Assembly: GCA_903834465.1 (NCBI GenBank)
Contig: CAILJB010000045.1
Location: forward strand, 1 to 64,000
DNA from: an uncultured Pseudomonadota bacterium
Lineage (GTDB): Bacteria; Pseudomonadota; Gammaproteobacteria; Methylococcales; Methylomonadaceae
Direction of reading: 5' to 3'
DNA length: 64,000 bases
Shown here piece by piece: positions 1 through 3,503 of the stretch. The notes beneath the pieces are model-generated. The model did not search any database, was not told the DNA's origin, and saw only the letters and a list, made by a program, of their open reading frames with translations. A program made the translations under genes and the position numbers. The stretch's first letter is position 1; every line of letters begins with the position of its first letter.

Positions 1-114
1 AGTGCGGCATTTGCCGCTGCCTCTGTTGCTGTAGGTAGAATGGTTGGAATCGACGGCATGATGGCGGCGAAACTAAATTCAAATCAACAAATTCTAGGTG
101 TGTCAAATGCGTAA
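1..114 (+). CDS. 3' end of a RiPP-precursor-like small peptide (partial)
   Basis: Frame 1 is open from the window edge to a TAA at 112-114, giving the last 37 residues of a small Ala-rich peptide. It contains the stretch GRMVGIDGMM and ends ILGVSNA. It resembles the next peptide: both have an Ala/Val-rich segment, then a [R/K]M[V/I]GI motif, then a short polar tail ending in a similar LG/MG-x motif. That relationship and the following PqqD-like gene suggest a ribosomally synthesised, modified peptide precursor, of which this is the core end. Its stop overlaps the start of the next gene, so the two are probably translationally coupled. The start and leader lie outside the window. The precursor role is inferred. 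Confidence 0.6.
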   Translation, partial: SAAFAAASVAVGRMVGIDGMMAAKLNSNQQILGVSNA

Positions 115-316
115 AAAATATGTTTCTCCACAAGTTAGAACGGATATGATTCCTAACGAAGCTGCGCCATTAGCATTTTTTTCTGCTGCAACAGCTGCCG
201 CAGCTGTTGTGGGCGCGGCAGTTGGGGCTGTTGCAACATCAAAGATGATAGGTATAGGTAATGACGGTTGCCGCAGAGAGATGATTAACCAAGAAATCAT
301 GGGATTATGTGCATGA
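107..316 (+). CDS. RiPP-precursor-like peptide (69 aa)
   Basis: The peptide begins MRKKYVSPQVRTDMIP, a leader like those of lasso-type and other PqqD-dependent precursors (basic start, KYxxPxV). An Ala/Val/Gly-rich middle of about 30 residues follows (from about residue 20), then SKMIGIGNDGCRREM and a C-terminal MGLCA. The two cysteines in the tail are absent from the 37-residue visible tail of the upstream paralogue. The ATG at 107 is chosen because an AGG-type ribosome site lies about 7 bases upstream and it overlaps the upstream stop (112-114). An in-frame GTG at 98 is less likely. The stop at 314-316 overlaps the next start as ATGA. Precursor status rests on leader resemblance and context; no cyclase or transporter is visible in this window. 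Confidence 0.6.
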   Translation: MRKKYVSPQVRTDMIPNEAAPLAFFSAATAAAAVVGAAVGAVATSKMIGIGNDGCRREMINQEIMGLCA

Positions 317-612
317 ATTATATAGATTCCATTTATGGAAAATACCAACACTTAGTAGTTCAGCCCAGCTATCGAAAAGCGCGACTTAATGGTACTGATT
401 TTTTAATTGTTATGAATGACAATTTAGAAACTTTTTACCTTGCTTCGACGGCTAAAGAAATAATAGAAACCATATCGAATGGAATTAAGGTTGATGACTT
501 GTATCAAAAAATGCAAACAGAGTATGAAATTGATGCTACGACTTTAAAAAGCGACATCCTGGAGTTTCTGAAAGATATGCAGTGGAAAAGGGTTATTTGT
601 TTGAGCGCATAG
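313..612 (+). CDS. PqqD-family RiPP recognition protein (99 aa)
   Basis: A small protein matching the PqqD fold, the winged-helix RiPP recognition element that binds leader peptides. An N-terminal strand region (LIVMNDNLETFYLAST, about residues 33-50) precedes helices with AKEIIETI, the short DDLYQKMQ segment, and a C-terminal helix ending LEFLKDMQW. It would present the leader of the two upstream peptides to a modifying enzyme encoded elsewhere, probably left of the window. The ATG at 313 is preferred over 307: it overlaps the precursor stop (ATGA) and GGGA lies 9-12 bases upstream. The family call is by pattern; the partner enzyme cannot be named. Confidence 0.7.
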   Translation: MNYIDSIYGKYQHLVVQPSYRKARLNGTDFLIVMNDNLETFYLASTAKEIIETISNGIKVDDLYQKMQTEYEIDATTLKSDILEFLKDMQWKRVICLSA

Positions 613-2695: not shown

Positions 2696-2911
2696 ATGAA
2701 TAAAACGAAATTAGAGTTAAAAGAAATTGCCCAGTATGGTGTAAATCTGGTGGTTGATGGATCAAAATTTACAAAGCTAGAGTTGATTGAAATTGTGGAA
2801 TCAATTCAAAGTGAATGCTCAATAGAGATTACAAATTGTCATTCTAAAACCAAGTTAGAACTTATCGAAATTGCAAAATACTCAAACAATGGAAGGCTAA
2901 CATATAGCTGA
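2696..2911 (+). CDS. Small three-repeat protein of unknown function
   Basis: A 71-residue protein made of three copies of a KTKLEL-x-EIA motif spaced about 25 residues apart (near residues 3, 28 and 53), each followed by a hydrophobic/polar strand-like segment. The repeats suggest a small repeat fold. Similar short KxELIEIA repeat proteins occur in other Proteobacteria, as far as I recall, without an assigned function. The ATG at 2696 is chosen for the AGGGGTG ribosome site at 2683-2689; the longer frame starting at 2687 is less likely. It is isolated between the thiC terminator and the DUF2188 gene. No functional call is made. Confidence 0.6.
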   Translation: MNKTKLELKEIAQYGVNLVVDGSKFTKLELIEIVESIQSECSIEITNCHSKTKLELIEIAKYSNNGRLTYS

Positions 2912-2968
2912 AATGCTATGACACAGAATCATGTAGTTTCATTACTCAAAATTTAGGAATTGAAAATT

Positions 2969-3202
2969 ATGAAAGGTAAAAGTACACATGTAGTACCTAA
3001 CAGTGATCGTGGTGGTTGGGATATAAAGCACAGTGATGGGAAACGTTCATCTGGTCATTTTGAGACTAAAGAGGATGCAGAGAATCGCGCTCGTGAAATT
3101 AGCAAAAAGCAGAAAACCGAACTGGTTATTCACAAGAAAGATGGAACAATTAGTAGTAAAGATAGTCACGGAAATGATCCATGTCCACCGAAAGATAGTT
3201 AA
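2969..3202 (+). CDS. DUF2188 domain protein
   Basis: A 77-residue basic protein matching the DUF2188 family: THVVPNSDRGGWDIKHSDG, then HFETKEDAENRAREIS, then ELVIHKKDGTI and a closing DSHGNDPCPPKDS. The family is widespread and small, and its function is unknown. Many members sit in accessory regions or near stress genes. The ATG at 2969 is preferred to the TTG at 2960. It has no clear operon partner: 57 bases separate it from the three-repeat gene and 127 from the next small gene. Confidence 0.75.
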   Translation: MKGKSTHVVPNSDRGGWDIKHSDGKRSSGHFETKEDAENRAREISKKQKTELVIHKKDGTISSKDSHGNDPCPPKDS

Positions 3203-3209
3203 TTAACGT

Positions 3210-3248
3210 ATCAACAGAGCAGTGAAAACATATCATATTTTGACTGCT
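3210..3248 (+). repeat. Hairpin-forming inverted repeat after DUF2188 gene
   Basis: GAGCAGTGAAAA and TTTTGACTGCTC form a 12-base stem with one mismatch around a short AT-rich loop. There is no clear T tract after it, so it is a weak terminator at best. The rest of 3203-3329 shows no other structure. Confidence 0.4.
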
Positions 3249-3329
3249 CGTCTAATTTCAAATTTTCATCATCAACAAAGCCACAACATAACCTACCCAA
3301 AAAAATTCAACTCAGAGTAAGCCACCACG

Positions 3330-3503
3330 ATGAAAAACCTAAAATATCTCATTTACCGCGAAGGCGATTATTACGTTTCACAATGTTTAAACGTCGAAGT
3401 GGCAAGTTTTGGCTCAACGATTGATGAAGCTCTGGCAAACTTAAAAGAAGCAACCGAACTTTATTATTTTGAAGATGCGAAAGTCGCGCAATTAGCCGCT
3501 TAG
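3330..3503 (+). CDS. HicB-like antitoxin (57 aa, solitary)
   Basis: A short open frame (MKNLKYLIYREGDYYVSQCL...) with the HicB/DUF1902-type partial RNase H fold: strand, GDYYVSQCLNVEVASFG, then STIDEALANLKEATELY and a short tail. HicB proteins neutralise HicA toxins, but no HicA (a roughly 60-residue dsRBD-like protein) is seen on either side. It could be an orphan antitoxin or one acting in trans. The C-terminal DNA-binding domain of longer HicB proteins is absent, as in many short members. A weak inverted repeat, GAGTAGC/GCTACTC, follows the stop. Confidence 0.65.
   Translation: MKNLKYLIYREGDYYVSQCLNVEVASFGSTIDEALANLKEATELYYFEDAKVAQLAA

Follow-up and report, generated by a model that had tools for sequence, protein, structure and literature searches.

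The closest solved maturase, by sequence as well as by fold, to the radical SAM enzyme described here belongs to the sporulation killing factor SkfA/SkfB, a sactipeptide system with a Twitch-type radical SAM enzyme, and the auxiliary-cluster domain is shortened in both enzymes. However, SkfB carries five conserved C-terminal cysteines (PMC6231123) whereas its counterpart in the methanotroph operon has two; moreover, in this operon the RiPP recognition element (RRE) is a separate protein and the first precursor, A1, is devoid of cysteine. The PQQ pathway resembles the operon by its PqqD-family adaptor, its radical SAM partner and a YxxPx-type leader motif, but the operon proteins fall below the cut-offs of the PqqD and PqqE models, there are two long hydrophobic precursors, and no PqqB or PqqC is encoded in the operon. 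As the genome under study possesses separate PqqD and PqqE proteins, the latter with a full SPASM domain, the operon is not its PQQ pathway. Lasso peptide systems of the B1 type share with the operon the YxxPx[A/V] leader motif and a discrete RRE; in the two relatives in which the operon is complete, however, a radical SAM gene is present instead of an asparagine-synthetase-like cyclase or a B2 peptidase. Finally, the streptide-like WgkBC system provides the best NCBIfam match of the PqqD-like protein (WgkC) and a match of the radical SAM enzyme (WgkB), but both scores are far below the cut-offs (32 of 110 bits and 80 of 650 bits respectively), and neither precursor contains a WGK motif.

The window, i.e., the whole stretch of DNA that was analysed, corresponds to bases 1-64000 (64,000 nucleotides) of contig C45. 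Since base 1 is the end of the contig, the left part of the operon was read in the two relatives. Three genes lie at the start of the window:

1-114, + strand: 3' part of A1 (last 37 codons, stop codon at 112-114; the 5' part is cut off by the contig end)
107-316, + strand: A2, 69 aa, with leader motif YVSPQV, hydrophobic segment FFSAATAAAAVVGAAVGAV and C-terminal GLCA
313-612, + strand: PqqD-family protein, 99 aa, putative RRE (PF05402, E 4.3e-9)

A1 and A2 overlap by 8 nt (ATGCGTAA), and A2 is joined to the PqqD-like gene by an ATGA overlap. The initial annotation had described this arrangement of two Ala-rich peptides, each overlapped by the next start, and its assignment of the third gene agrees with the significant PF05402 match (37 bits, for a Pfam cut-off of 23.4). 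The PqqD-like protein also gave weak matches to the WgkC, lasso B1 (NF033536) and PqqD models, all below cut-off (21 bits against 46 for the PqqD equivalog model); its structure prediction was poor (pLDDT 46) and the model was not used. In the relative of the same genus A1 is 66 aa long at full length, and the residues encoded in the window are identical to the corresponding part. Alignment of A1 with A2 yielded a score of 57.5, compared to 2.9 +/- 8.1 for shuffled sequences; this score was reached by none of 2000 shuffles, and by 5 of 2000 when composition was kept block by block. By these alignments the two peptides look paralogous, as had been proposed.

Both leaders carry a YxxPx[A/V] motif. 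The sequences YTKPIA and YVSPQV fit [Y/W]xxPx[LVIAFY], published as the RRE-binding motif of lasso leaders and found in PQQ precursors too (PMC13381572; YxxPx[LVIAFY] is cited as an RRE-binding motif to PMC12710340 as well), and thus represent putative RRE-binding motifs. Within the whole window, only two distinct small ORFs display YxxPx[LVIAFY] in their first 16 residues, one of which is A2. Beyond the leader, A1 and A2 have in common an Nx[AG]xP step, a hydrophobic Ala/Gly segment (Kyte-Doolittle values of about 1.9-2.0 over 19 residues) and a similar C-terminal tail. Cysteine is absent from A1 and occurs once in A2, at a conserved position within GLCA. The [R/K]M[V/I]GI sequence that had been suggested as the core is not conserved, as it is missing from A2 of the relative of the other genus, which reads AKALGDI at this position.

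The relatives were found by a scan of genome contigs: one belongs to the same genus (G271, contig C21; locus L002) and the other to a different genus of the same family (G284; locus L003), the loci being assigned to these genomes by their matching coordinates. In both loci, the genes are arranged in the order CxxCxxCC protein (92 aa), radical SAM enzyme (346 aa in L002), A1, A2 and PqqD-like protein, with the same tight spacing. Because this order and the overlaps are repeated in the two loci and dN/dS values are low, A1, A2 and the PqqD-like gene are real genes rather than chance reading frames. The modifying enzyme had been predicted to lie to the left of the window, and the radical SAM gene is indeed located directly upstream of A1 in both relatives. 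Protein and DNA searches did not find it in the assembly of the genome under study, where they retrieved nothing closer than pqqE and further radical SAM genes (27-31% identity); as this assembly lacks the stretch to the left of base 1, we infer the enzyme for this genome from its relatives. Radical SAM genes are common neighbours of RREs (PMC12710340).

The radical SAM protein matches PF04055 (E 7e-21) and, partially, PF13186, which represents a SPASM remnant or a truncated region. Its cysteines comprise a CxxxCxxC motif at positions 48-55 and, in the C-terminal region, C288 and C313 only, too few for a full SPASM or Twitch cluster. The closest solved structures by sequence are SkfB (8e-17) and PqqE, and the closest folds to its low-confidence model are SkfB, SuiB and PqqE, all peptide maturases; as the model is weak at the C-terminus, the barrel match alone was used. 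The protein remained below the cut-off of all the maturase models shown, including those for PqqE and the mycofactocin maturase. These sub-threshold matches, and the pairing of a PqqD-like protein with a PqqE/MftC-like radical SAM enzyme, are in favour of a pathway of the PQQ or mycofactocin type, in which a small redox cofactor or a signal would be excised from the precursor. However, this appears very improbable: the operon is devoid of PqqBCF or Mft partner genes, there are two precursors with hydrophobic segments, the distribution is patchy and cargo-like, and PQQ genes are already present in the genome.

The operon block is 84.7% identical between the two genera, and homology between L002 and L003 covers 2.0 kb, from the start codon of the CxxCxxCC gene to the stop codon of the PqqD-like gene; the association of peptide and PqqD-like protein seen in the window is thus kept across two genera. 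Comparison of L002 with L003 gave dS values of 0.33-0.99 and dN values of 0.036-0.133, with dN/dS of about 0.07 for the CxxCxxCC gene, 0.07 for the radical SAM gene (computed over its C-terminal 255 codons), 0.11 for the PqqD-like gene, 0.18 for A1 and 0.25 for A2. All five genes are under purifying selection between genera. In G284 the radical SAM gene is frameshifted within a G run, reflecting either a sequencing error or decay. This frameshift, together with the RTX and thiC remnants that flank the operon (see below), could indicate decaying cargo without function; yet dN/dS is far under 1 for every gene between genera and all operon reading frames are intact in G271, which makes such a state quite improbable. 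Close homologues of the radical SAM gene are present in 2 of 311 genomes of the order, and none was detected in 369 sampled genomes of the class or 399 of the phylum, two samples that partly overlap and were searched at thresholds (E 1e-30/1e-28) that distant relatives could escape. Among 61 relatives, the PqqD-like protein was found in the genome under study and in G271; plasmid, phage and viral collections gave no match. Since the operon is rare, occupies different chromosomal places in the two genera and shows homology that stops at its borders, it is likely to be horizontally mobile.

With short precursor genes adjoining a radical SAM gene in both relatives and a PqqD-like/RRE protein present, we consider that the start of the window is probably the 3' end of a five-gene, RRE-dependent radical SAM RiPP operon making a hydrophobic two-peptide product. 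The PqqD-like protein would bind the YxxPx[A/V] motif of A1 and A2 and hand both peptides to the radical SAM enzyme, which may modify the Ala/Val/Gly segment or residues of the C-terminal tail. An unlinked peptidase would then cut near the conserved Nx[AG]xP step: the linked exporter or peptidase that had been anticipated was not seen in the L002 and L003 flanks that were read, nor was an immunity gene or a cyclase. The released product would most likely be membrane-active and used in competition. Sactionine formation cannot explain both peptides, as A1 has no cysteine, and this chemistry was ruled out for the pair. Because thioether chemistry cannot account for both substrates, the operon would be a useful test of the scope of radical SAM peptide enzymes, should a maturase whose auxiliary domain is reduced indeed act on two hydrophobic peptides that are poor in cysteine. 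More speculatively, the operon might define a class of two-peptide RiPPs in which Cys-free, Ala/Gly-rich membrane segments undergo a new radical modification, in which the CxxCxxCC partner also serves candidate membrane-type anti-phage systems, and which spreads in cassettes carrying their own thiC 3' end.

Downstream of the PqqD-like gene, the window continues as follows:

613-735, + strand: RTX-like remnant, last about 40 codons (ending in ADFSIQLNGMSSLVATDFVL and the stop codon)
747-774, + strand: hairpin CCGCCCG...CGGGCGG, a boundary element or terminator between cargo and toxin-antitoxin (TA) genes
800-997, + strand: VapB antitoxin (PF09957, E 4e-11)
994-1404, + strand: VapC toxin, PIN domain (NF047959, above cut-off)
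1427-2545, + strand: thiC 3' fragment without about 232 N-terminal codons (NF006763/TIGR00190, matched over their C-terminal part only)

Large ORFs in L040, L042 and L047 terminate with the same tail as the RTX-like remnant; two of the L040 ORFs are RTX/FG-GAP proteins by Pfam. The hairpin and its T-rich flank recur mostly at thiC-linked cassettes of the same genus. Several genomes of this genus bear fragments of thiC, a vitamin B1 gene, downstream of intact thiC (window, L040, L042, L043, L002 and L049), and the cargo of the cassettes includes VapBC, BrnT, MazE, PIN, PDDEXK_2, RTX/FG-GAP proteins and HEC-01A/B. The thiC junction of the window, GGCRGCGACACGATTATGG, is the same in six other fragments, and the seven junctions examined all start at one thiC base, GGCGGCGACACGATTATGG, preceded by varying cargo or by the hairpin. 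Among 237 genomes of the family, the exact junction motif is duplicated in this genus only. The contig ends of G271 fit the order thiC, RiPP operon, TA genes, thiC fragment, HEC-01, trpS, with the repeat collapsed in the assembly. In this genus, the RiPP operon is among the cargo of a thiC-tail cassette region and is placed between copies of the 3' half of thiC.

SCC elements in rlmH are integration hotspots at which the end of the gene is restored, and the thiC region is comparable in that its cargo is flanked by the intact gene on one side and by additional copies of the 3' end on the other. However, the thiC repeat reaches about 1 kb and every fragment starts at the same base, close to a hairpin; inspection by eye and a partial Pfam scan of the thiC cassettes that were retrieved revealed no recombinase among their ORFs. 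A recent simple tandem duplication of thiC is disfavoured, the fragments being inconsistently closest to the intact copy of their own genome: the tail of the G269 fragment, for instance, is 93.2% identical to its own thiC and 98.2% to that of G265. This inconsistency suggests that thiC fragments were exchanged between species. We infer a single ancestral join between a hairpin arm and thiC at GGCGG, followed by spread and shuffling by homologous recombination via the thiC repeat, and the fragments may form a recombination-driven cassette array. Judged by titles, no paper on thiC as a cassette hotspot was found in the open-access literature. The region offers a readable example of the way in which conflict genes, among them a RiPP operon, are swapped between methanotroph species.

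These neighbours, TA pairs and the HEC-01 candidate defence genes, raise the question of an intracellular conflict system of the abortive-infection type, in which the modified peptides would hit the producer's own membrane when triggered, the CxxCxxCC protein acting as sensor or partner and no bacteriocin being exported. The lack of a linked exporter and the hydrophobicity of the 19-residue segments would suit such a system, as would distant CxxCxxCC homologues (33-40%) encoded directly after candidate defence genes in other Methylococcales: PDC-M09A at L063 (scanned with PADLOC), PDC-M09B at L061 and PDC-M40B at L062, the neighbours at L064 and L065 being near-identical by eye to those at L063. 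PMC12715929 deals with the co-localisation of lanthipeptide genes and defence systems; for CxxCxxCC proteins encoded in RiPP operons, a search of the open-access literature by title yielded no paper. However, CxxCxxCC proteins form a broad family and are tied to defence through guilt by association, and PADLOC, run on the CxxCxxCC, radical SAM and PqqD-like proteins, returned only the general similarity between radical SAM enzymes and viperin. We regard a conflict system as unlikely and retain a two-peptide product used in competition as the preferred reading.

The thiC surroundings hold further genes. The HEC-01A/B candidate defence pair is located at L049:2347-4306 and adjoins a thiC 3' end in G271. 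In the window, small ORFs follow the thiC fragment at 2699-3503: one is internally repetitive (about 70 aa), one encodes a DUF2188 protein and one is HicB-like. Pieces of this stretch are encountered again close to thiC in further genomes of the genus. At L052:4753-4950, a HicB-like ORF ends with IYHEV, the last residues of ThiC; it seems to be an antitoxin-like gene to which a very short remnant of thiC has been fused.
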